64,000 nt of DNA from NCBI GenBank assembly GCA_009838195.1, contig VXSC01000037.1, positions 1 to 64,000 of the forward strand, in the 5' to 3' direction. Position 1 is the first letter of the stretch. Each line of letters starts with the position of its first letter. The notes beneath the pieces are model-generated. The model saw only the letters and a program-made list of their open reading frames with translations, did no database searches and was not told the origin of the DNA. Below, in pieces: positions 388 to 26,195 of this stretch. The position numbers were made by a program, and so were the translations under genes. The stretch is from Rhodothermaceae bacterium. GTDB taxonomy: Bacteria > Bacteroidota > Rhodothermia > Rhodothermales > Bin80.

Positions 388-720
388 GAGACATCCCTAA
401 TAAGATGCAGAGGGAGGTTCTATTACCCGCCTTTCCGTAGATCCCCTGGATTTATTCATTCGCCCATATCTCGATTTGTTTTGAAAAAAGCATCCGGGTC
501 TCGCGCTGTACGCTGGCCGTTAAAGCAATTGTAATACTTCAATGCTCGGGCCAAAAGATTCAATTTAATGTGAATTAACAGTAATATGGCCAATATTTCC
601 CATTATATAACAGATAAAGGATAGAATCTCTGGAAAAATACTGGAGTAATTACTATCTCCAGTGAGAGGGTCTGTCTATAGCGGTGTAATGATCCGCTAG
701 TTATACAATATTCGCAGGGT
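388..720 (+). repeat. Dispersed repeat, copy A
   Basis: This stretch matches the reverse strand at about 25860-26195 (copy B) almost base by base and, over its second half, 23958-24062 (copy C). A and B align without gaps from 404 to at least 655. The first part (404-523) reads as the end of a protein, with the motifs EGG, VDPLD, IRP, LDL and HPGLAL before TAA at 521-523; copy A carries an extra in-frame TGA at 482-484, so it is dead as a gene. The second part holds the core GAATTAACAGTAATA, then CAGATAAAG and AAAATACT, shared by all three copies. No transposase or clear terminal repeats were seen. It may be the remnant of a mobile or duplicated locus. Confidence 0.7.
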
Positions 721-1113
721 GAGTGCGTGGGCCTGTGCCATGCTCCGCTGCGGGACACGCTACCCCCCAGTCGCGCAACCATTGCTACCTGATCGCTGCG
801 CCTAGCCGGTTCGTCAAAAATGAACCTAGGTAGATGGACAGATCCCGCGCGGAGCGACTTTCAGTTCGTGTGAAAAAACAGATCGATCGATCTTATGGAG
901 TGCCAATCCGTTGCGTACAGGGAAGATCTATAAAAAATCTGATATGATTCAAATTATGTCGCTGTTTTATTTGCATAAACGGTAGAGAGCTCCCTCGATT
1001 TTGGATTTTGGAATTTTGCAAGAGGCTCAATGTGAGAAAAATTGCCTATAATGCTGGGGCAGACTCACACATTTTCCGATCCAAAAGGATATGGACCGTT
1101 GTACAGCAAAGTA

Positions 1114-4100
1114 ATGTTATTTCTCCGGGATGAGGGTGGCAGCCTCAGGACCTGTGCTAGGCCCATCCTGATCTTCGTTGGACTTGGGGTGTTGTTGTCT
1201 GTTGTCGCCCTTGGTCAAGTGCCCACGCCAATAACCCATACTGGCGTGACTCCCCGGGTGTTGTGGAATTCGAATTTGCAGGCTCTTGAAAACAGTGAGA
1301 ACTTCGCGGTGGCAATTGATGGGAATTTGTTGCCGTCGGAAGCAGAGTTTGGCCGCCGTTCCCCGGTGGAGGTGACGTGGTGTTTGAGCCTTTCTGCGCA
1401 AGCGGTGATTGCAGGAGAATCAGTGACCGTGAAAGCAACGGTTTCTCCGGTGCAGACACAAGATGTTGACGTTGAAATTTCTTCCGATTCTTTGCTGCGT
1501 CCTTTTTTGGACCTGGATGACGGGACGTCGGTCACGATCCCGGCAGGGGCAAGTGAGTCCGCCCCGATAACGATTAAAACTCGTTGGGATGACAGTAATG
1601 ATTTATTTACTTATGGATGGCTGATAGGAATACCAGAACTGCCACATGTTCACCCTCTCTGTTTATGTCCTGTTTTGCGGATTTTCTCCCCGAATGCTCC
1701 CCCGGCGGTCTCACTGTCGGCATCTCCGAACTTGGTGTACGAAGGGGAGTCGGTCACGGTGACAGCCACGTTGACGAAGGCACTGTCGGATGCGGTGACT
1801 ATTCCCTTGGGATATGGTCCAGGTCGCCCACCGGCATTGGCGTGGTTCGATTATATTACTCTCCCGAGCATTACGATTCCCGGGGGATCCCGTACCGGAT
1901 CGGGGACGATTACCATTCGGGATGACGGGATCTCTGAGGGGGAGGAGCGTTTCGATGTTGGCTTGAGTTTTCCATTGCCGTCCAAGATAATAGATGGCTA
2001 CCCTTCGAGGGCGGGTATCACAATTCAAGACCGTGCCCCGGTGGACGTGACGCTCTCGGCATCTCCGGATCCGGTTGAGGAGGGGAATTCTGTCATGGTG
2101 ACGGCAATGCTGTCCAAGGCGCTGGACACGAATGTAACGATTCCGTTGACCTTGAGCGATGGCTCGGCGGAGGCAGGGGATTATGTGGCACCGTCTCCGG
2201 CCCAGGTGGTGATCAAAGCGGGAGCGACGAGCGGAGCCTACCGGATCATGACGGTGGCGGATGACGTTGCCGAAGCAGACGAGACCTTCACAGTGGCCCT
2301 TGGCTCCCTTCCGTCCAGGCTGGCCAGGGGAGATCCACACCGGGCCACTCTGACCATCGCCGACAACGACCAAGCCGGGATCCAGGTCCTCCGATCTGTC
2401 TCGGTGGCGGAGGGGAGCCAGGAATTTTTGGAGATCGCACTGACTTCGGAGCCGTCCACCTCCGTCGCGGTACAGATGGACTGGTCTTCGGGAACCGACC
2501 TGAGTCTGCATCCCATGTCGTTAACCTTTACGCCCGAGGACTGGCATGATGGGCAACTGGTGACGGCGATGGCGGCGGAGGATGATGATTTTGCGGATGA
2601 TCAGGTTCCAGTGATCCTGACGGCGAGCGGGAGTGACGACTACATCGGGATCGTGGAGACGGTGGTGGTAACGATCATGGACAACGATGCGGGGGAGATA
2701 CTGGTTGCGCCATCGGTGACGGTGGAGGAAGGGGGCACGCATCCGCTCGCGGTGGGTCTTTCTGCCCGGCCATCGGGCCCGGTGACGGTAACGCTGACGG
2801 GACACGCGGGGACGGACCTGGCATTGGAGCGGACTTCGCTCACGTTTACGGTGGCGGATTGGTGGACTCTCCAGCCGGTGGTGTTGACGGCGGGGCCGGA
2901 CGATGATTTTGCGGACGACACGGCGACGTTGACGCTCACCGCATCAGGTGGCGGCTACACCGGGGTGACGGCCGTGACCGCGGTAACGATCACGGACGAC
3001 GATACAGCGGGGATCTTGGTGGAGCAGGCGGTGACGATGGAGGAAGGGAGCACGCACCCGCTCCGGGTGGTTCTTTCCGCGCAGCCATCGGGCCCGGTGA
3101 CGGTAACGCTGACCGGACACGCGGGGACGGATCTGGCACTGGAGCGGACTTCGCTCACGTTTACCACAGCGGACTGGCAGACTCCGAAGCCGGTGATGCT
3201 GACGGCGCTGGAGGATGACGAGGATTATGTTGATGAAACAGTCGGACTGCATCTTGCGGCATCGGGCGGTGGCTATGCCGGGGTGGTGGCAACAAGCACG
3301 GTGACGATCATGGACAATGATGAACGTCCGGCAACGATCACGATCCACGACCATCAGGGATTGGAAGATGCGGGGGTTCTTCAGCTTCCCATCCGACTCA
3401 GTCGCCCCGTTGATCAGTTGGTGACCGTGCAGTATGCGAGTGCCGACAGGGAGGCGGAGGCGGGTCTGGACTATATGACCTCGCGCGGGATTGTGATTTT
3501 TGCTCCGGGGGCTACCCGGGGAATGATTGAGATCAAGGTCACCGATGATGAACTTCTGGAAGAAGATGAGTCTTTTGTGGTCACTTTGTCAAATCCGCGC
3601 CAGGCCATCATTGCGCGAGAGACGGGGACGGGCACGATTCTGGATAATGATGGCGGGGCGGTGACGCTTCGGGTCGAGGATGCGGTGGTGGTGGACGACG
3701 AGGAGCGGGTCCGGTTTCGGGTCGTGCTGTCGCATGCGCAGGGTCAGTCGATCTCGGCTGTGTACCGGACCCGGGACGGGACAGCCCGGGCGGGGGAGGA
3801 CTATGAAGCGTCTTCGGGGGTGGTGACGCTGATCCCGGGAACCATGGAAGCCATGATTACGGTTCCGCTGCTGCATGGCGGACAGGATCGGCATGAGGAG
3901 ACGTTCACGGTGCATCTGGAGTCGTCAGGGCATGCAGAGATTACGAAGGGGGTTGGAGTGGCCACGATACAGGAATCAGCCACGGTCAGCGAAGAGGTTC
4001 TGGACGCGTATGCGGCGCGGTTTGTTCGGACCTCATCGGCAGAGATTGTGGAGGCATTGGCCGAGCGGTTCCGCTCTGGGGTGGAGGGTGCAGCGTGCGG

Positions 4101-5217
4101 GGCGGCCGACCGTGCGGAGACGGCCCGGCTCTGGCATTCGGCTTCGTCATGGGATCCGTCTCTGGGCGAACTGTTGGCGGGGTGCCGCATGGCGGCGAGT
4201 TCTTACAGTGGTGCATTCAGTGTATGGGGACGGGGGGCATACCGGCAGTTTGGTGGCCCGGATGCATGGACACTGCGCGGCGAGGTAAGTACAGCGATGG
4301 TGGGGGCGGACTACCGGTGGCGGGCCGGTTGGCTGGCGGGGGTGCTGCTATCGCACAGTCAGGGGAGTGGATCGTTTGCAGTGATGCGGCAGTCTGGCGA
4401 GATCACGTCCGGGTTGACGGGGGTGTATCCGTACATGTCGTATGCAGGTGCGGGCTGGGAAGTGTGGTTGAGTGCGGGTGCGGGTCGCGGACAGGTGGAG
4501 ATGCAGGAGTTGGACACAGATCTGGCGTCACGGTTTGGGGCAATGGGGGTTCGGGGGAGTTGGGTGTCCGGCGGCAGGATCGGGCTGAACTACCGTGGAG
4601 ATGTTCTGGTGACGGATGCAAGGCTTCGGGATAGGACGGCAGAGGTGTACCGGGTGCGGGCCGGGGTGGAAGCCAATGCAACGATCAGGCGAGGGCTTCG
4701 TCCGTATGTGGAGGCGATGGTGCGCAGCGATGGCGGGCGTGCGGAGACGGGCGTCGGGTTGGAATTTGGCGGAGGGATTCAGGTGGACTATCCGGCGTGG
4801 CGTTTGAAGGGGGATGTGCACGCGCAGGGACTGGTGATGCATACGGCGGAGCAGTTCACGGAGTGGGGAATCTCAGGACGGGTGCAGGTGGGCCGTCGAT
4901 CGGAGGGAGTGATGGTGCAGGTGCGTCCATCGTGGGGACGGGGGATGTCGATCTATGGTCAGCCATTGGATGCGGTGCCGATCGGTGCCAATGTGCACCG
5001 GACGGAGTTGGAACTGGGGTACGGCGTTCCATGGAAAGAGGGCACGGCCCGGTCCATTGTGGGGGTCACCCGGATGGCTCAGGGGAGGATGTACCGGCTG
5101 GGAGGCGAATTCCATCCGTGGGAACAGGTGAGCTTCTCAGTCTTTGGGCTGGCACATGGCCACGAAACGGCGCTGGCAGACATCGGAATGAATGTGCGAG
5201 GGTCGCTGCGGTATTAG
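1114..5217 (+). CDS. Giant secreted Calx-beta repeat protein with C-terminal autotransporter-like beta-barrel
   Basis: A protein of about 1367 residues. An N-terminal hydrophobic stretch (ILIFVGLGVLLSVVALGQ) looks like a signal peptide. Then come about seven Ig-like modules of Calx-beta type, most ending in a D-N-D or D-D-D turn (ADND, MDND, TDDD, LDND) with acidic loops that normally bind calcium. Two adjacent modules (about 2690-3010 and 3010-3320) are nearly identical in DNA, implying recent duplication. The last roughly 330 residues (from about 4200) alternate aromatic and hydrophobic residues in amphipathic strands and end in RGSLRY, as expected of an outer-membrane barrel. The likely role is a calcium-stabilised surface adhesin anchored by its own barrel. 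The start is uncertain: the frame is open from TTG 1042 and ATG 1051, and 1114 was chosen for signal-peptide geometry. The gene is markedly more G-rich than its neighbours, which may indicate transfer or repeat-driven composition. Confidence 0.75.
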   Translation: MLFLRDEGGSLRTCARPILIFVGLGVLLSVVALGQVPTPITHTGVTPRVLWNSNLQALENSENFAVAIDGNLLPSEAEFGRRSPVEVTWCLSLSAQAVIAGESVTVKATVSPVQTQDVDVEISSDSLLRPFLDLDDGTSVTIPAGASESAPITIKTRWDDSNDLFTYGWLIGIPELPHVHPLCLCPVLRIFSPNAPPAVSLSASPNLVYEGESVTVTATLTKALSDAVTIPLGYGPGRPPALAWFDYITLPSITIPGGSRTGSGTITIRDDGISEGEERFDVGLSFPLPSKIIDGYPSRAGITIQDRAPVDVTLSASPDPVEEGNSVMVTAMLSKALDTNVTIPLTLSDGSAEAGDYVAPSPAQVVIKAGATSGAYRIMTVADDVAEADETFTVALGSLPSRLARGDPHRATLTIADNDQAGIQVLRSVSVAEGSQEFLEIALTSEPSTSVAVQMDWSSGTDLSLHPMSLTFTPEDWHDGQLVTAMAAEDDDFADDQVPVILTASGSDDYIGIVETVVVTIMDNDAGEILVAPSVTVEEGGTHPLAVGLSARPSGPVTVTLTGHAGTDLALERTSLTFTVADWWTLQPVVLTAGPDDDFADDTATLTLTASGGGYTGVTAVTAVTITDDDTAGILVEQAVTMEEGSTHPLRVVLSAQPSGPVTVTLTGHAGTDLALERTSLTFTTADWQTPKPVMLTALEDDEDYVDETVGLHLAASGGGYAGVVATSTVTIMDNDERPATITIHDHQGLEDAGVLQLPIRLSRPVDQLVTVQYASADREAEAGLDYMTSRGIVIFAPGATRGMIEIKVTDDELLEEDESFVVTLSNPRQAIIARETGTGTILDNDGGAVTLRVEDAVVVDDEERVRFRVVLSHAQGQSISAVYRTRDGTARAGEDYEASSGVVTLIPGTMEAMITVPLLHGGQDRHEETFTVHLESSGHAEITKGVGVATIQESATVSEEVLDAYAARFVRTSSAEIVEALAERFRSGVEGAACGAADRAETARLWHSASSWDPSLGELLAGCRMAASSYSGAFSVWGRGAYRQFGGPDAWTLRGEVSTAMVGADYRWRAGWLAGVLLSHSQGSGSFAVMRQSGEITSGLTGVYPYMSYAGAGWEVWLSAGAGRGQVEMQELDTDLASRFGAMGVRGSWVSGGRIGLNYRGDVLVTDARLRDRTAEVYRVRAGVEANATIRRGLRPYVEAMVRSDGGRAETGVGLEFGGGIQVDYPAWRLKGDVHAQGLVMHTAEQFTEWGISGRVQVGRRSEGVMVQVRPSWGRGMSIYGQPLDAVPIGANVHRTELELGYGVPWKEGTARSIVGVTRMAQGRMYRLGGEFHPWEQVSFSVFGLAHGHETALADIGMNVRGSLRY

Positions 5218-5620: not shown

Positions 5621-6235
5621 CTATCCCGTCGCCGCCGCAAAGTTGTCAGCGACCTGTGCCCAGTTCACTACATTCCAGAATGCAGCTACATAGTCGGGGC
5701 GGCGATTTTGGTAGTTGAGATAATAGGCATGCTCCCATACATCCAAACCAAGGATAGGAGTATGGCCCTCCATATACGGACTATCCTGATTCGCCGTGGA
5801 ATACACCTGTAGTGCACCCTCGGAATCTACAATGAGCCAAGCCCATCCACTGCCGAACTGTGTGGCCGCAGCTGCAGAGAATTTCGCCTTAAAATCCTCA
5901 AATGATCCAAATGCACTGTTGATGGCCGCTGACAGAGCACCCGCTGGAGAACCACCACCGGTTGGGCTGAGGACTGTCCAAAAGAGATTATGATTAGCGA
6001 AGCCACCGCCATTGTTGCGGACAGCACCTTGGACTCCCTCCGGTAAATCAGAAATTCCCCGTAAAAGTTCTTCAATGGACTTCGACTGCAGACTTGCGTG
6101 ATCCTCCAACGCCTTGTTCAAGTTGGTGGTGTAGGCTTGATGATGCTTTCCATGGTGAATCTCCATGGTTCTCTGGTCAATATAGGGTTCCAATGCACCG
6201 TGTGTGTAGGGAAGATTAGGAAGTTCAAAAGGCAT
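5621..6235 (-). CDS. sodA: Superoxide dismutase (Mn/Fe family)
   Basis: At 204 residues this is the family's normal length. It dismutates superoxide to oxygen and hydrogen peroxide in the cytoplasm. The four metal ligands are visible: H27 in [10 protein letters not shown]82 in ANHNLFW, and D165 and H169 in LDVWEHAYY. The NQDSPY segment before the last ligand motif is more typical of manganese or cambialistic enzymes than of strict iron enzymes, so the symbol is tentative. It lies on the same strand as, and just downstream of, the complex I genes, a sensible place because respiration generates superoxide. A 24-base inverted repeat in its upstream region (6267-6290) could be an operator. The start [10 protein letters not shown] matches the family N-terminus. 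Confidence 0.95.
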
Positions 6236-6316: not shown

Positions 6317-6850
6317 TTAAGAACGGACGTTCATCAGTTTCTTATAGTCTGCTTCTGTTAAGCTTCCGTCAGAGCGTAAGCGATCAAGGGCCCGCGAAAC
6401 TGCAGCCCAGTCCGTCTCCTTTGAGTTAGAGGGGTCCGGAAGCAACATAACATTTCGAAGCAGTTGTTCGATATACTCAGTGCTCTCCGGATGCCTTGAA
6501 AGATCAAGTTTTACTGAAAAGGTTGCCCTCCCCCTGTTTACTTCCATCACGATGTGTGCCCCGCGAAGCTTAGACCGGCTAGAATCAATAAAAACAATAT
6601 CGCGATAACATACGGTCTGGGGAGACTCCAGATCTGAGTTTTGAAAAATCAGGCGGTCTTCCAGAAAAACCGCGCCATCTTTTCCGTTGCCAAGAAACGT
6701 ACCATCATATAGCGCGAGAATATCTTCAGAATGCGCATCCTTCGCATAATCACGGGTTGCACCTCTTAACCTTTTTTGGGGAATTTCGGGAGTAACGTAT
6801 AACCCGATCTTAGGAGCGTGCGGCAAAAGATCCTCGATCAGTGTTCTCAT
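6317..6850 (-). CDS. Hypothetical protein with PH-like core and SHOCT-like C-terminus
   Basis: A cytoplasmic-looking protein of 177 residues with no signal peptide or membrane segment. The middle (about residues 45-120: ILALYDGTFLGNGKDGAVFL, then a YRDIVFID strand) alternates beta strands in a way that recalls bacterial PH-like domains. The end (ALDRLRSDGSLTEADYKKLM) matches the short helical pattern of SHOCT oligomerisation motifs. It starts 9 bp after the nuoN stop and probably belongs to the same transcript. Its role is unknown; membrane or protein-complex association is a guess from the domain types. Confidence 0.7.
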   Translation of the reverse strand: MRTLIEDLLPHAPKIGLYVTPEIPQKRLRGATRDYAKDAHSEDILALYDGTFLGNGKDGAVFLEDRLIFQNSDLESPQTVCYRDIVFIDSSRSKLRGAHIVMEVNRGRATFSVKLDLSRHPESTEYIEQLLRNVMLLPDPSNSKETDWAAVSRALDRLRSDGSLTEADYKKLMNVRS

Positions 6851-6859
6851 TTTGAACGG

Positions 6860-8359
6860 CTACGGAAGGGTTGCAAGCGGACCCTGCGTAAAAAAGGACA
6901 GTGTTAGATCCCGAATCCCTGGAACCAAACCAATCCCTAACAACAGGATTGCACATGTTACAAGGACGATGGAGGACGAGCGGGGGATCGGGAAGGCCTC
7001 GGATTGGACGGCTGGGTCCGCCTCGGTAGCGGGTTTCATCCAGAATACATACAACACGCGCAGGTAGTAATACCCCGAAAAAACGCTGGCCAACACGCCA
7101 ACAATTGCCAACCAAGTCAGGCCTGCATCGACCGCTGGTGCAAAGACCGCAAGCTTCCCAAAGAACCCTCCTAAGGGAGGAAATCCAGTCAAACTGAACA
7201 TGAATACCCCCATCGTGATACCGACCAGAGGCCTCTTGAAACCAATGCCTGCAAGAGAATCAAGGGTTTGCATACGTCCTTCTTTGCCATCCCATTCCAG
7301 TAATGCGATCGCACCGAACGCCCCAATATTCATCAGAGCATAAATCAAGAGGTAATAAACTGCTCCCGCATACGCTTCACTGGTCCCCGCGGCCAATGCA
7401 ATCAATACATACCCTGCATGCGCAATGGAGGAATATGCGAGCATTCGCTTCACATTGTCCTGCGTCAGTGCAAGTAGATTCCCAAATACGACTGTCACCA
7501 GTGCAACGAGTGCCAGTGCCAACTGCCAGTCTCTACCCCCAGGTTCCAAGGTTCCAATCCCATGGTAGAGCACGAGTACCAGCGCTGCAAAGGCGGAAGT
7601 TTTCGAAGCAGTCGCCATGAACCCCGTCAGGGGCGTAGGTGCACCCTGATAGACATCCGGTGTCCACATATGAAATGGCACCGCGCCAACCTTGAACATA
7701 AATCCGACCAGAAACAAGGCAACCCCGACCCAAAACAGAGGGCGTAACCCACTCACAGAATACCCAACAGCCATCTCCGTGAAATACATCGTCCCGGTAG
7801 CACCGTAGATGAGAGCAATGCCATACAGGAAGAAACCAGTTGAGAAAGCTCCCAGCAAAAAATACTTGAGTGCACTCTCCAGCGCACCCTCATCACTTCG
7901 GACAATGCCAGTGAGGATATAGAGTGCAATGGACATGGTTTCCAGACCAACAAAAACAGTCACCATGTTGTTGGCCGTCCCCAACATTAACATCCCGCTG
8001 GTGGCAAACAGCATAAGAGCGTAGATCTCCCCGTAACTCCGACGGATTCCTTTCAGGTAAGGCACTGAAAGAATGATTGAGAAGAGCGCACTGACTAAAA
8101 TGGTCACGCTGATAAACGAAGCGAGGCCTCCCGTCTGAATGAGCGAGAAAAAAACGGTCGAAGATGGATCGGAAACCTTGAACAACTCGAAGACCATCGC
8201 AATCACGACCGACAGCCCCGCAATCCACGGCAACTGGGGGGCATCGTTGCGGAAAACATCCCACACAATGACGATCACACCAACGAGCGAAAGCCAGAGA
8301 ATAGACGCTCCTCCGGCCAAATCTACCAGGATGGTATCAAATGCGGACGAAATCTCCAT
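6860..8359 (-). CDS. nuoN: NADH-quinone oxidoreductase subunit N
   Basis: A polytopic membrane protein of 499 residues, the usual length for NuoN, one of the three antiporter-like proton-pumping subunits of complex I. It carries the glutamate helix (VGLETMSIALYILTG) and the lysine-bearing channel segment (FKVGAVPFHMWTP with DVYQGAPTPLTG), followed by the SKTSAFAAL helix. It is the last nuo gene of this cluster and is separated from nuoM by nhaD and phhB. The phhB gene lies 5 bp upstream, so translation is probably coupled. Recognition is unambiguous. Confidence 0.97.
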   Translation of the reverse strand: MEISSAFDTILVDLAGGASILWLSLVGVIVIVWDVFRNDAPQLPWIAGLSVVIAMVFELFKVSDPSSTVFFSLIQTGGLASFISVTILVSALFSIILSVPYLKGIRRSYGEIYALMLFATSGMLMLGTANNMVTVFVGLETMSIALYILTGIVRSDEGALESALKYFLLGAFSTGFFLYGIALIYGATGTMYFTEMAVGYSVSGLRPLFWVGVALFLVGFMFKVGAVPFHMWTPDVYQGAPTPLTGFMATASKTSAFAALVLVLYHGIGTLEPGGRDWQLALALVALVTVVFGNLLALTQDNVKRMLAYSSIAHAGYVLIALAAGTSEAYAGAVYYLLIYALMNIGAFGAIALLEWDGKEGRMQTLDSLAGIGFKRPLVGITMGVFMFSLTGFPPLGGFFGKLAVFAPAVDAGLTWLAIVGVLASVFSGYYYLRVLYVFWMKPATEADPAVQSEAFPIPRSSSIVLVTCAILLLGIGLVPGIRDLTLSFFTQGPLATLP

Positions 8360-8364
8360 AGATG

Positions 8365-8658
8365 TTACTTACCAAAAACCTTATCAATGGCCTGTGCCAA
8401 GAGTACATCCATCTGGCTAACCCGATTCCCCGCACTGTGAGTGGTGAGCTCAATACTGACCTGATTGTATACGTTGTACAAGATGGGATGATGATCTAAA
8501 TGGTCTGCACAAAACCCAATCCGCACAATGAATGCGACTGCTTCCCGGAAATCTGCAAACTTGAAGGTCCTGGTGAGTCGATCGTTACGAAACTCCCAGT
8601 TCTGCAGCGACGCAAGAGCGTCATTCAATGTTTTTTGATCAAGTGGATCACGATTCAT
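8365..8658 (-). CDS. phhB: Pterin-4a-carbinolamine dehydratase
   Basis: A small cytoplasmic enzyme of 97 residues that dehydrates 4a-hydroxytetrahydrobiopterin during recycling of the pterin cofactor of aromatic amino acid hydroxylases. The family signature is visible as ADHLDHHPILYNVYNQV, the histidine-rich active site, followed by the ELTTHSAGN segment. It sits between nhaD (16 bp) and nuoN (5 bp) in a continuous operon. A homologue (pcd) occupies the equivalent place in the Rhodothermus marinus complex I locus. No aromatic hydroxylase is nearby, so its link to complex I, if any, is not explained by the classical role. Confidence 0.93.
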   Translation of the reverse strand: MNRDPLDQKTLNDALASLQNWEFRNDRLTRTFKFADFREAVAFIVRIGFCADHLDHHPILYNVYNQVSIELTTHSAGNRVSQMDVLLAQAIDKVFGK

Positions 8659-8674
8659 GGGCCCAAGAAATTAT

Positions 8675-10225
8675 TTAAAAGATCCATCCGCTATAGAAAA
8701 CTAGCCAAACCACAGCATACACTGGCAACAAGATCGTCAATCCGTACTTGACTAGGTAACCAACAAACGATGGGACATCGGCACCGTTGGACTCAGCAAT
8801 AGCCTTGACCATAAAGTTCGGTGCATTTCCGATGTAAGTCATTGCACCAAAGAAGACCGCCGCAATCGAAATTGCCGACAAATAAAGCATGGATGCGTCC
8901 GCATTCGCAAATGCTTTCACCTCCACTGCATTATTTATGTCCATACCAAATTTGCCCATCGCTGCCGCAAGGAAGTTGAGGTACGTTGGTGCATTATCTA
9001 GTACACCGGACAGCGTACCGGTTCCCCAGTAGAAGGTCGTTGCGGTGAGAACGGAAGCATTCTCCGCAGCATAGTTCGAAATCAATGCCAACGCCGGTAC
9101 CATGCAGGCAAAGATGCCAAGGAATAACCAGCCAACCTCACGGATGGGTTCAAACGTGAATTCATTCTTTTTCAATGCCTCCTGATCACAGCACTTAAAG
9201 GCAAGCACGCACATCGAGAACATGATGATTTCTCGAATCCCAAATGGAAGATGATAGGTGCCAACTAAGTCAAATGGTGTCCCCTTCATTGCCGTGATCA
9301 CATTGGGATCAATAAATACGGAGACGACAATGATCACAACAAATATGAAGCTTCGGTTCCCCTGCAACTCAATGGTTTTTCCAGAAGAAATATCCGTTGT
9401 TGACTTTGCCTTGTTACGGCTGTCCATCACATAAAAAATGGCCAACAACACGATTAAGGTTGGCACCCAAATGTGCCATACATGTGCTGCTGTCCAGAAA
9501 AACGGAACACCACGCAGAAATCCTAGAAACAGCGGTGGATCTCCAATCGGAGTCATCGCGCCACCGACGTTTGCAACAATGAAAATGAAGAAAACAATGT
9601 GGTACGCTTTCAAGCGCCCCCTATTGAGACGCATATAAGGGCGAATAAATAGCATCGCCGCGCCGGTGGTTGCGATCAGGTTTGCAACTACTGCTCCCAC
9701 AGAAAGAAGTGAAATATTCGCAAGTGGTGTTCCCCTTGCATTGACTTTTAGGAAGATCCCGCTGGCCGCAATAAATAGCGAAGCCACCAAGGCGATGAAC
9801 GAGAGATATTCCTGAAGTGCATGCAGCATCGAAATACCGTCGTGCAGTACGAACAGGTAGTACACCGTCACAAAGAGACCCAAACCCACAGCATACTTGG
9901 GATAGTGGTGGTGCCAGTGATGTCCATAGAAAAGTGGCCCGGTTGCAATCATCAGAAGAAGAATCACAAAAGGCGCAACCAGCCATAGGGGAGGAAGTAC
10001 CTTTGCATGCCCCCCACCGTAGCCTTCTTCGTGATCCCCTTCTTCCGCAGTTGCATCCTGCACTGCGTGATCCGCATCCTCTGTACTTTCCATCACCTCC
10101 TCGGCACTACCATCAACTTCGTGGACGGTATCATTAGTAGCACCGTCCTCTTGCGCAAAAGCCGTAGAGCTACCTATAACAAGAAACAGTACAAACCATA
10201 AGTAAAGTACGCGAGGAATCGTCAT
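8675..10225 (-). CDS. nhaD: Na+/H+ antiporter NhaD
   Basis: An inner-membrane antiporter of 516 residues that exchanges cytoplasmic sodium for protons. An N-terminal signal-like helix ending in STAFAQ is followed by a stretch of about 60 residues very rich in Asp, Glu and His (EEGDHEEGYGGGH), presumably periplasmic, and then about 11-12 membrane helices. The family motifs NVGGAMTPIGDPPLFLG and GALTYIGN-like (AMTYIGNAPNFM) are present. The polar extension is longer than in many NhaD proteins and could bind cations. Placed between nuoM and phhB, it is probably co-expressed with complex I, suggesting that proton pumping is converted into sodium extrusion. Confidence 0.93.
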   Translation of the reverse strand: MTIPRVLYLWFVLFLVIGSSTAFAQEDGATNDTVHEVDGSAEEVMESTEDADHAVQDATAEEGDHEEGYGGGHAKVLPPLWLVAPFVILLLMIATGPLFYGHHWHHHYPKYAVGLGLFVTVYYLFVLHDGISMLHALQEYLSFIALVASLFIAASGIFLKVNARGTPLANISLLSVGAVVANLIATTGAAMLFIRPYMRLNRGRLKAYHIVFFIFIVANVGGAMTPIGDPPLFLGFLRGVPFFWTAAHVWHIWVPTLIVLLAIFYVMDSRNKAKSTTDISSGKTIELQGNRSFIFVVIIVVSVFIDPNVITAMKGTPFDLVGTYHLPFGIREIIMFSMCVLAFKCCDQEALKKNEFTFEPIREVGWLFLGIFACMVPALALISNYAAENASVLTATTFYWGTGTLSGVLDNAPTYLNFLAAAMGKFGMDINNAVEVKAFANADASMLYLSAISIAAVFFGAMTYIGNAPNFMVKAIAESNGADVPSFVGYLVKYGLTILLPVYAVVWLVFYSGWIF

Positions 10226-23266: not shown

Positions 23267-23860
23267 TTAGTGGGCGGTGCTCAGCGCATTCATTACGGCT
23301 TTATAGTCCGCTTTGTCTACTTCGTCTAACAAGGATGTGGCTGCTGGAGCAATGGCAACGAAACGTATGCGGTCCCCATCGAACACGGATGCCCTCGGCG
23401 AAGAGCCTCGGGGCCGCTGAATAATTACGAAAACGGTTCCGACTTCAGTAGCATACGAGAGGTTGATTTCTCCGAGAGAAAACGGAAGGGCATAAAATTC
23501 CTCTCCACCACTCCCTAGATCAGTATACGCTAGTACGACTCCACGTTCGTGAATTTCACGGGTAATCAGTCCTGAAGACCATCCTGCTACTTCTAGGAAC
23601 TCCGATACCTGAAAATCACTTGTTCGCAAGGTTACGGTAAAACTCTGAACATTGGCGTTACCCGGTGGTCCTTGCTCTCCTGTAGCTCCCCGTTCACCTG
23701 TCCCCCCCTGCGGTCCAGCAGGCCCTTCTGGTCCAACGGGACCTTCGCAGGCAGACAGGAATAGGGCGGCAAGCAGGAATAGAATAGCTGCCAAGCTAAG
23801 GGATTGGAGAGAGGGTCCTCTACCATTTATGCAAATAGAAAGCGGCATAATTTCAGTCAT
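23267..23860 (-). CDS. Lipoprotein with collagen-like Gly-X-Y repeats
   Basis: A protein of 197 residues. A signal peptide of type II ends in the lipobox LSAC. Directly after the lipidated cysteine come about ten collagen-like triplets (GPVGPEGPAGPQGGTGERG continuing to GPPGN), then a globular beta-rich domain of about 130 residues (FTVTLRTSDFQV, ITREIHERGVVLAYTDLG, FYALPFSL). Similar collagen-plus-globular lipoproteins are common in Bacteroidota, where the role is unknown; a trimeric surface stalk is plausible. It is a lone gene inside a decayed region but itself looks intact. Confidence 0.85.
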   Translation of the reverse strand: MTEIMPLSICINGRGPSLQSLSLAAILFLLAALFLSACEGPVGPEGPAGPQGGTGERGATGEQGPPGNANVQSFTVTLRTSDFQVSEFLEVAGWSSGLITREIHERGVVLAYTDLGSGGEEFYALPFSLGEINLSYATEVGTVFVIIQRPRGSSPRASVFDGDRIRFVAIAPAATSLLDEVDKADYKAVMNALSTAH

Positions 23861-23957
23861 TTCAATTTTATCTTGTTGTAATGATAGACGACAGTCAATC
23901 CCTGAAAGTGACGGACACTGATGCCACTTTGCACAAGAATTCCCTATCGAAGAGATA

Positions 23958-24062
23958 GCGGTAAAATAGTGACACTTGAAGTATTTTGTCAGTCATTTAT
24001 ATTCCTTATCTGTGATTTTATCGGAAAATTTTGTTATATTACTGTTAACTCATAATAAATTG
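23958..24062 (-). repeat. Dispersed repeat, copy C (core only)
   Basis: The minus strand from about 24062 down carries the same core as copies A and B: GAGTTAACAGTAATAT, then ACAGATAAGGAATA, then AAAATACTTCAAGTGT. The part corresponding to the 120-bp coding tail of A and B is missing and is replaced by an IS110 transposase remnant that ends at this point, so the junction lies near 24060. Confidence 0.55.
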
Positions 24063-24555
24063 TAGCTCCGGGCCAGAACTGGTTCCAGACCTGATGTGCC
24101 AGCCGAGTGTGCTGCGCCGTCAACTCATCGGCTATGCGATACCATTCGAGCATCCGTATGATCTCGACATTAACCCGATCTAATCTTCACAGAAATTGGG
24201 ATCAGTCTGGACAGCATCGGCGAGCACGCGCGCATCCCGGCGGTCATTGGGTCCGACGAATACCAATCCCGGAAGCGATCCAACTGCTTGGGGTTGATGG
24301 TAGGCACCTAGAAGATATTCCCCTTGAAGCCGTCCACGACCAGACCATTGGAAACCTCAATGGCAGCTGCAATCTGGCCCGCAGTACAGTTTGCACAATC
24401 GAAGATCTAGTCCCACTGTTGGGGATTCCATCCCCTGAATGTGCAATAGAATTCTTACCAATAACGGTTCCTACTGAATTCACGATGCACACCTGGTACG
24501 ACTCAGTCCCCGAGTCAATGCTACAAAAGATGATGGATTGAGAATTCGTAGACAT
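24063..24555 (-). pseudogene. Degraded IS110-family transposase
   Basis: Four fragments in shifting frames reconstruct an IS110 transposase N-terminal half. The first catalytic strand is SIIFCSIDSGTESYQVCIV. NPKQLDRFRDW follows. Next comes the DRRDARVLADAVQTDP block, which carries the catalytic aspartates of the DEDD domain, and last VEIIRMLEWYRIADELTAQ with HTRLAHQVWNQ. At least three frameshifts and a stop interrupt it, and the C-terminal half is missing. The element is dead. Confidence 0.75.
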
Positions 24556-25341
24556 GATGGTGTATCTGTAGTGTGTGAAAGTAGTCGCGGATTGATGTGA
24601 TGCTTCATCGGTCCCTATATCGGTGCTCAATGACACAAACTCTCTACGGGGCGAAATCACGGCACTTCCTAGGGCGCGCCGACCAAGCAATCAAGACACA
24701 GGAGGCAGTTAGTCACTTTTGGGGAGGTGATCCGCAGAGACCCGATGTGAAACACAAATAGGCAATGCTCTTGTGAGCCTGGAAAGATCAAACGGTCTCA
24801 AAATCAAAAACCCTCGGCACAGAACCGATGATCCGTGACCTCTTTCATTGAAGCCCCAAACCCGCAGCTCTATGTCAATCTTCTTCAACTTCTTTGATTG
24901 CTCCAATACGTACTTAGGTAGCATCCCCTACAACATACAGGGTGAAATCCCCTCCCATTCCCTTTCCGAAATAGCCAGCGGTGTGTTAGCACCATTTTCT
25001 TCGATCTTGGCGGACGGCTTTCTTTGTCTCGCTGGGGCCTGAAAATGAACTGTCCACTGAAGAAGAAGAAGAACCAGAAGTCAAAGTCAGAGTACATGAC
25101 TGGTGCGATAACCAGAGTGACGAGTGTTGGATTTGACAACCTTCTGATGATCGTAATGCCCAGAGGCCCCCAGAATACAGACCGACCTCCCCGCGAACTG
25201 GCGATGTAAATCAAGCAGTGACCTCCAAGAAAGAACGTAACAAGCGACCCATCGAGAGCGGTGGCGAGGCGTGCATTCCCACCTATACCCGAATCTGTGC
25301 CAAGCCTTTCGGACGGGGCAACTCCCACCTTTTCAAACGCT
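24556..25341. other. Decayed stretch with a possible membrane-protein remnant
   Basis: About 790 bp without an intact gene. On the minus strand from about 25265 to 24928 one frame gives hydrophobic segments (SLVTFFLGGHCLIYIAS, TLVTLVIAPVMYSDF). After a single frameshift near 25010 it gives a polar tail (PSAKIEENGANTPLAISE) and a stop. This may be a broken small membrane protein. Nothing else is supported. Confidence 0.3.
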
Positions 25342-25701
25342 TCAGTTGTTACTACAGCGGACACTTCGTGACACTGCGCTAAACAATCTGATGTTGCCTT
25401 CACTGTCGCCTTCGACATTGAAGTCTTCGCCACTGCGGCACAACCGAGCCTCGGTGTCCGATAGCGGCAGTTGAGTACATGCCCGCTCGTAGGCCGAATT
25501 CAGCGCCTCCTCACGCGTGCTGCCCGTCCCCGTGCCCGTCCCGGATCCGCTTGGTGAACTCAGATTACCGAGCGTGGACGGTTCAAGAGTCAGTGTCACA
25601 GTACATTCCCAAGACGCCGATGAAGGGGAGGCAGTGTCACATGCACTTAAGGTCAAGCCGACCGTCGCCGCTGTAAGGATCAATAAGTCTAATCTACGCA
25701 T
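25342..25701 (-). CDS. Small Cys-containing lipoprotein
   Basis: A protein of 119 residues from the chosen ATG (an in-frame ATG at 25734 would add 11). The signal peptide LILTAATVGLTLSAC has a good lipobox. The mature part has a SGSGTGTGTGS linker at about residues 50-60 and four further cysteines (WECTVT, RACTQL, RLCRSG, VRCSNN), which could form two disulfides in the periplasm or on the surface. No family was recognised. It stands alone on its strand between decayed elements. Confidence 0.7.
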   Translation of the reverse strand: MRRLDLLILTAATVGLTLSACDTASPSSASWECTVTLTLEPSTLGNLSSPSGSGTGTGTGSTREEALNSAYERACTQLPLSDTEARLCRSGEDFNVEGDSEGNIRLFSAVSRSVRCSNN

Positions 25702-25859
25702 CGTTTGTTGACAGAGTATTCGTTTCCGGGTCATACTTTCAGGAGAGCCTCTTGAAAAAACCTAAAATCTAAAACCGGGGCAAATCACAAACAGAGCCCA
25801 GTGAACTTTACAGTACAGTTTCCAGTCCGTACGATTTTTTGTGCTTCGGGCACACAGGT

Positions 25860-26195
25860 CCAGACACTCGCCTAGTGAATATTGTCCAGCTAGCAAGTCG
25901 TTATGGACAGGAAACCCTGTTTGCAAAGATAGTAACTCTTCAAGTATTTTTTCGCCAATTGTATTCTTTATCTGTTGTATAATGGCCAATATCGGTGTTA
26001 TTACTGTTAATTCATGCCAGATTATATGTTTGAGCCAAAGCATGGAATAATCACAATCAATTTAACGGTTGGCGCACAGTGCGAGACCCGGATGGTTCTT
26101 TCGCACCAAATCGAGATGCGGGCGAATGACTGAATCCAGGGGATCTACGAAAAGACGGGGGATTAAACCTCCCTCTTGATCTGATTAGATGGGCA
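25860..26195 (-). repeat. Dispersed repeat, copy B
   Basis: The minus-strand partner of copy A (388-720), aligned without gaps for more than 250 bp. The minus strand reads a 39-codon open tail (26181 to 26062: EGGLIPRLFVDPLD, IRPHLDLVRK, HPGLALCANR, stop). Exactly 21 bp after the stop begins, as in copy A, a second frame starts with ATG at 26043 (MLWLKHIIWHELTVI...) and stays open to 25762 (93 codons). Whether this second frame is a gene is unclear: it is broken by stops in copy A. Confidence 0.7.

Follow-up and report, generated by a model that had tools for sequence, protein, structure and literature searches.

A dispersed intergenic module in a Rhodothermaceae genome, probably the operator-promoter cassette of a one-protein two-component regulator

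Our analysis of a 64,000-nucleotide stretch from a Rhodothermaceae bacterium (contig VXSC01000037.1, positions 1 to 64,000; hereafter the window) identified a dispersed non-coding repeat that is probably a cis-regulatory cassette, defining an OmpR/PhoB-type regulon of a regulator of the P0001 type. The anatomy of the repeat, its intergenic position, its orientation, its co-occurrence with the regulator and the content of the adjacent genes were observed directly, and it is from these features that we infer binding and regulation.

Three copies of the module lie in the window. Copy A (388-720, +) comprises a left arm, a core and a right arm, as located by blastn in the window and genome and by a profile match at 464-727. 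Copy B (25865-26188, -) has its core at 25927-26012, and copy C (23911-24079, -) at 23964-24050, both located by blastn, the profile and a sequence-only model, R1 (E 1.3e-19 and 9.6e-15, respectively). As an earlier note on this DNA had reported, copies A (397-658) and B (26188-25927, -) lie on opposite strands and align over 262 bp with no gap (blastn, 77.1% identity, E 1e-54); copy C aligns to copy A over 83 bp (23980-24062, -; blastn, 75.9%, one gap). Across the assembly, blastn locates the repeat at 14 places (E<=0.001) and, since even the weakest of these matches has an E-value of 1.1e-5, the repeat is far beyond chance; model R1 places 15 sites in the same genome (G000). The suggestion of a multi-copy unit that is only partly present in the window was borne out by these 14-15 genome copies and by the BLASTN search of the genome for an intact copy, which located a fuller form on contig C3, between two genes, and also on contig C13. 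The 'IS110 debris' described near copy C could not be confirmed, as window positions 24244-24690 gave no Pfam hit at E<=0.001.

The earlier note had read the repeat as a decayed two-gene unit, with a 39-codon gene tail followed by a second frame. This reading, which the gap-free alignment of copies A and B over 262 bp favors, is now scarcely credible. The tail frame of copy A reads VDPLDLFIRPYLDLF, a stop, KKHPGLALYAGR and a further stop, so that it is interrupted internally, and the next ATG opens only 8 codons. Differences between copies A and B are spread over the three codon phases as 23/20/17, showing no codon bias, and 22 of the 25 indels in eight long copies (copy A as reference, shared indels recounted) are not multiples of three. 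Copy B has longer frames that the other copies do not preserve, and the second frame is not common to the copies either; a protein-coding unit was therefore rejected. At the fuller loci no such genes are found in this position, and the DNA of the supposed tail is the antisense of the start of a divergent sensor-regulator gene (L017:98-2452, -). The repeat itself is thus a member of a non-coding intergenic family, which overturns the gene-based reading.

The fuller form on contig C3 (locus L017) is the divergent intergenic region between the gene of this regulator, P0001, and a large surface-protein gene. P0001 is intact, with 784 amino acids encoded at L017:98-2452 (-) by a gene that begins MNKSNKVDSEIQ, and harbors GAF, PAS (below cut-off), HisKA (1e-14), HATPase_c (1e-24), PF00072 (3e-25) and PF00486 (1e-17) domains according to Pfam. 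Its receiver (REC) domain with the Asp residue, its Trans_reg_C winged helix and the H-box His kinase in the same chain assign it to the OmpR/PhoB-type two-component proteins. In an alignment of P0001 with 28 of 38 close relatives, H322 is present in 29/29 rows, D604 in 28/29 and K653 in 29/29. The best solved relatives of the output part are MtrA, RegX3 and KdpE; among full-length response-regulator chains, MtrA matches best. The GAF part resembles DevS, called a redox sensor in its structure entry, so that a redox or gas signal would be a plausible guess for P0001.

A divergent module beside an intact regulator is found in G000 (C3, L017), G003 (C54) and G009 (C119). On contig C13 of G000 (L018), the module lies twice between a regulator start and a surface-protein gene, one of these regulators running off the contig and the other being broken by a stop. 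The two units on this contig form a tandem duplication (L018:88-3493 and 6513-9933) that takes in the surface-protein gene, the module and the start of the regulator, with 79.7% identity over 3450 columns. In the window, alignment to the L017 regulator start and the translations revealed a relic of the divergent gene start in copy A (397-459, -; MNKS..., 20 codons), which keeps MNKS and then departs from P0001 jointly with copy B and the copies on C47 and C11. These regulator-start relics, together with the left extension common to copies A, B, C47 and C11, suggest that the module spread by copying of the cassette.

Iterated profile searches yielded 59 module copies in loci from five genus genomes, of which the 51 with at least 70 bases of core were aligned (alignment A1). 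The core, which is the part common to unrelated loci, has the consensus AATTAACAATAATATAACCAATATTnCCCAnTATATAACAGATAAAGAACATAATTGACGGAAAAAATACTTGAAnCGTTACTATnT between such loci, with AAC at positions 0, 11, 32 and 43 (spacing 11-21-11). Copy A carries its core at 573-658 (+; alignment A1, R1 E 1.7e-17), a candidate operator plus a promoter-like part that faces right, with AAC at 577-579 and 609-611, degenerate half-sites at 588-590 and 620-622, and TACTATC at 651-657. When the core profile was matched to itself, the best mean lags were 32, 21 and 43 bp; single lags gave p 0.003 at 10, <0.004 at 21 and 0.007 at 32, and z 1.8 at lag 11, values uncorrected for 31 lags. Helical phasing was borderline as an in-phase score against shuffles (p 0.049 for a period of 10.5 and 0.023 for a period of 10) and not significant as plain spectral power (p 0.087 and 0.070, respectively). 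The core is probably a candidate OmpR/PhoB-type operator with two tandem half-site pairs, the phasing alone being borderline. In seven G001 copies, the DNA separating half-sites 2 and 3 is shorter by 10 bp (about one helix turn), a loss that may represent one event.

The right arm contains TTGAC followed 18-19 bp on by TACTATCTT, the left arm contains TTGTATCTTTGG on the opposite strand, and TATCTT(T) is present in both arms. This motif resembles the TAnnTTTG element of Bacteroidota promoters. If the arms are promoters, transcription would be expected to begin shortly 3' of TACTATC on the right and of TATCTTTG on the left. A hairpin-like inverted repeat was noticed by eye at the presumed transcription start in L166, L171, L179 and others (G001, G003), being TTACTAAACT..AGTTTAGTAA in L179. 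The conserved unit extends past position 720, with a second block 5' of the target gene at 866-993 (+) that is matched beside other copies and belongs to an nhmmer family with 16 matches in the loci examined; in copy C it lies at 23813-23918 (-). In seven copies, 11-13 bp separate it from the profile match; in two, a longer insertion intervenes. The family (866-993 and 15 further matches) is also found apart from the core, for instance in L167, L195, L177 and L172, and the second block may be a separate promoter or leader.

The presumed target of copy A is a Calx-beta/autotransporter-like surface protein encoded at 1042-5217 (+; ORF and Pfam), whose true start is probably further in and whose autotransporter match is under its Pfam cut-off. 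Within this gene, window positions 2568-3003 repeat as 2886-3321 (73.9%), as expected of modular Calx-beta proteins. Copy B faces a presumed target ORF at 25342-25734 (-) for a 130 amino acid protein with a lipoprotein-like start, for which no Pfam family was found. That of copy C (23267-23860, -) is a lipoprotein-like protein with a weak collagen-repeat match (PF01391, E 5e-4, under cut-off).

The copies are intergenic and mostly oriented towards the genes that follow them. Only one of the 59 copies lies inside an ORF of at least 150 amino acids, while such ORFs cover 78% of the loci. Model R1 recovered 68 sites, 65 of which have at least 1 kb of DNA after them and could be scored for an ORF of at least 120 amino acids within 1 kb: 60 have a codirected ORF ahead, 4 first meet one in the opposite direction, and the last has none in range. 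In 20 stretches of the same genomes, the opposite ORF came first at 883 of 2045 control intergenic points (binomial p 4e-11), many of these points sharing genes, so that the codirected ones represent 90 genes. The arms match the neighboring genes as well. Among the copies with a left ORF (4 of the 59 have none and were omitted), a divergent left gene was present within 450 bp in 7/7 left-arm-only copies, all from G001, in 13/32 copies with both arms and in 3/16 copies without a left arm (p 5e-4 for 7/7 against 3/16, a comparison picked after seeing the data). A codirected right gene lies within 600 bp of 47/52 copies with a right arm and 4/7 without one. Given the relatedness of the G001 copies, these arm-gene counts are not fully independent.

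Comparison across genomes links the sites with the regulator. At E<=1e-3, the 68 sites fall in five of 16 family genomes (G000, 15; G001, 17; G002, 10; G003, 16; G009, 10), with 0 in the other 11 when up to 150 first-look candidates are scored for each genome. P0001-like genes were found at E<=1e-60 in G000, G001, G003 and G009, that is, in four of the five site carriers, and at E<=1e-40 none was found in the assemblies of G002, G004-G008 and G010-G015. The resulting distribution, 4/5 carriers against 0/11 others, gives a Fisher p of 0.003, uncorrected for phylogeny. In an AspRS tree, G001, G002, G003 and G009 group together, and G000 groups with G004 and G005, which have neither sites nor regulator (support 89/91). 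The best tree implies two site/regulator changes, and one suffices in 6% of bootstrap trees; since only one of the two is forced by well-supported branches, the co-occurrence is weakly replicated. The sites thus lie upstream of genes and are oriented to them (60/65), and they co-occur with a regulator over one or two phylogenetic changes, as would be expected of a regulon.

We considered whether the repeat could be an inert mobile element of the MITE or REP kind that is intergenic by chance. It is multi-copy, intergenic and unequally distributed between genomes, and transposase-like genes lie to the right of several G001 copies (by eye), PF01610 matching 2 of the 60 targets. However, its copies begin and stop at varying places with no fixed ends seen, unrelated loci share the core, orientation and arm-gene matching are strong, and the 11 relatives with 0 sites yielded no regulator either. 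The way the copies face their genes, the conservation of the core and its co-occurrence with a single regulator make an inert repeat unlikely, at roughly one chance in eight by our estimate, and point to a cis-regulatory module. Counting against the regulatory reading, the core at orthologous loci mostly does not stand out as a conserved island: it is no better conserved than the upstream flank in three of five sets (Cas3g, 0.61 vs 0.62; L164/L175, 0.80 vs 0.80; regulator, 0.61 vs 0.64). It clearly surpasses the flank in one (GPP34-P450, 0.41 vs 0.13), and the alignment of the fifth set was poor.

A structured RNA leader, riboswitch-like or an attenuator, would explain why a long stretch past the presumed start, towards the gene, is conserved and why some copies show, by eye, a hairpin-like sequence. 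We regard this as very improbable, since RNAalifold predicted 0 pairs in the 51-sequence core and positions 1-30000 of the window gave no Rfam match at gathering score. Somewhat less improbable than either of these, although still doubtful, is that the module is a true operator/promoter of another transcription factor, with the P0001-type regulator being one more target. The regulator of G001 has no site on its contig, G002 has 10 sites and no regulator found in its assembly (one of its matches starts at contig base 23, on the expected regulator side), and the phasing typical of OmpR is only borderline. Against this, sites and P0001 were gained or lost together in the genus, and the module lies divergently beside an intact regulator in three genomes. 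A regulon of the P0001-type regulator is the reading that we favor.

Carrier genomes have 10-17 copies each, mostly before genes other than the regulator. The targets include surface or eukaryote-like proteins by Pfam, among them Calx-beta, autotransporter-like and LRR proteins, a WD40 protein with 14 matched stretches and TonB receptors, to which are added three subtilases (two with LRR), a sortilin/BNR protein and Por_Secre_tail proteins (6/60 at E<=1e-5). A signal-peptide heuristic, which misses signal peptides visible by eye, was positive for 19/60 targets and 13/90 controls (p 0.015); some ORFs of the 60-target set look spurious, e.g., L017:2650-3075 and L016:1925-2587. The GPP34 (Golgi phosphoprotein 3) and cytochrome P450 families each match 3/60 targets, and a fusion of the two is encoded 3' of the module in L189, L203 and, by similarity, L168.

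Defense genes are also among the targets: Cas3g in G002, G003 and G009; Cas7g/Csb1, HsdM (type I methylase) and ZorA in G003; an HmaA-like helicase in G009; and a type III methylase in G001. In the carriers, each of the four Csb1 (type I-G) loci found belongs to a gene set that starts right after a site, the first gene being Cas3g in three and Csb1 in one; three further Csb1 loci, in G004, G005 and G008, belong to genomes without any site. In the genome of L083, which is outside the training set, R1 hits the promoter of its own regulator (E 8e-11) and a site with an unclear target (E 3e-4), and a weak third hit (E 0.003) lies 63 bp before a Cas3g gene. With padloc at E<=1e-20, where counts are of families and one protein can match several, the 60 targets gave 3 Cas3g, one type I and one type III methylase, one HmaA and 2 'subtilase' among 25 of 59 families listed, and the ZorA and Cas7g targets also pass this threshold. 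The 90 control genes gave DrmD (2), DrmA (2), DrmB (1), AbiEi (2), type III methylases (2), BrxH (2), HmaA (1) and mad3 (1) among 25 of 27 families listed. Random genes of these genomes are therefore defense-rich too (DISARM-like, AbiEi, methylases), and we claim no enrichment: defense operons are members of the target set, and defense genes are not clearly enriched over the background.

Of 71 loci matched by P0001 in a genome collection, 38 (L081-L118) encode proteins of 50-87% identity (E 0), in records labelled as many phyla. Those records whose source could be traced come from sponges. The names bin80 (MPNB, Rhodothermaceae), bin65, bin43 and bin103 are those of bins in a study of the sponge Aplysina aerophoba, according to passages of that paper (PMC5649159). 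The jk18x bins fit the naming in passages of an Ircinia study (PMC9531527), in which the p16x names do not appear. For the remaining records of P0001 relatives, a sponge origin is suggested by their names alone. In two genomes of distant phyla, the DNA upstream of the regulator has no second copy (queries of 221 and 271 bases, from which short operators could escape), which suggests that the dispersed form of the cassette is a trait of this Rhodothermota lineage. Upstream of distant regulators (40 loci, L081-L120, minus four of Rhodothermota = 36, thinned to 29), a period of 11 had the top z for repeats (4.4 for pairs; next 3.0), a score driven by few cases. In a Latescibacterota MAG (L105, about 5855-5880), two 11-bp repeats resembling the Rhodothermota half-site pair lie 5' of the distant regulator, with ATCACAATAATATCACAATG in reverse complement. 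A PWM scan of the distant upstream regions was unconvincing, its full-length version scoring low everywhere, probably owing to composition.

OmpR/PhoB-family regulators share with P0001 the REC domain and winged-helix output. Boxes of the PhoB, KdpE and MtrA type are tandem direct repeats next to a promoter, and the module resembles OmpR/PhoB boxes in its candidate head-to-tail half-sites about one helix turn apart beside a promoter-like part. Unlike these systems, P0001 carries its sensor, kinase and receiver on the same chain as the DNA-binding domain, and the candidate box has four half-sites at 11-21-11 and recurs with long flanking arms. The hybrid two-component systems (HTCS) of Bacteroides are also one-protein sensors and DNA-binding regulators, encoded beside TonB/surface genes; they sense in the periplasm, have an AraC-type output and regulate loci next to them. 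P0001, by contrast, couples a GAF/PAS input to an OmpR-type output, and its many candidate targets are dispersed.

Mobile promoters and copied stretches of intergenic DNA likewise place highly similar promoter segments before unrelated genes; papers on this topic include PMC9208149 and PMC8049555. The segment copied here differs in that it seems derived from a regulator-operator cassette, so that copying would enlarge the regulon. In Serratia, the available passages of one study (PMC10810281) describe how one phosphorelay, Rcs, links surface features and CRISPR-Cas expression, with inverse control reported from experiments; P0001 belongs to another protein family with other operators. Restriction-modification genes (PMC5649159), and CRISPR, restriction-modification and eukaryote-like repeats (PMC8163846), are reported to be enriched in sponge symbionts, and the passages of these two papers that were available name no regulator. 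A narrow literature search (titles and abstract starts) found no description of this regulon.

In the mechanism that we propose, the full cassette is that of contig C3, with the one-protein two-component regulator gene on one side and the surface-protein gene divergent from it. The GAF/PAS part of P0001 would sense a cytoplasmic signal, upon which the protein would autophosphorylate at His322 and transfer the phosphate to Asp604. The winged-helix domain would then bind the half-sites and activate, rather than repress, the flanking promoters, rightwards and, where the left arm is kept, leftwards. Surface and eukaryote-like proteins would in this way come under joint control and, in related genomes, so would CRISPR type I-G and other defense operons. 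The module would have spread by copying of the regulator-operator cassette.

More tentatively, and with perhaps one chance in three in our judgment, this could be a self-spreading regulon, in which the cassette copies its regulatory half beside new genes and so captures adhesins, eukaryote-like proteins and whole defense operons (type I-G CRISPR, type I and III restriction-modification, Zorya). One sensor of a redox or host signal might then switch host contact and immunity together in these relatives of sponge symbionts. Given the core consensus, the candidate P0001 and the 68 sites, the regulon can be tested in vitro, with no culturing needed. If true, it would be a clear case of a regulon that grows by copying its own promoter, and it would bear on how symbionts coordinate many surface and eukaryote-like proteins with a rich phage defense.
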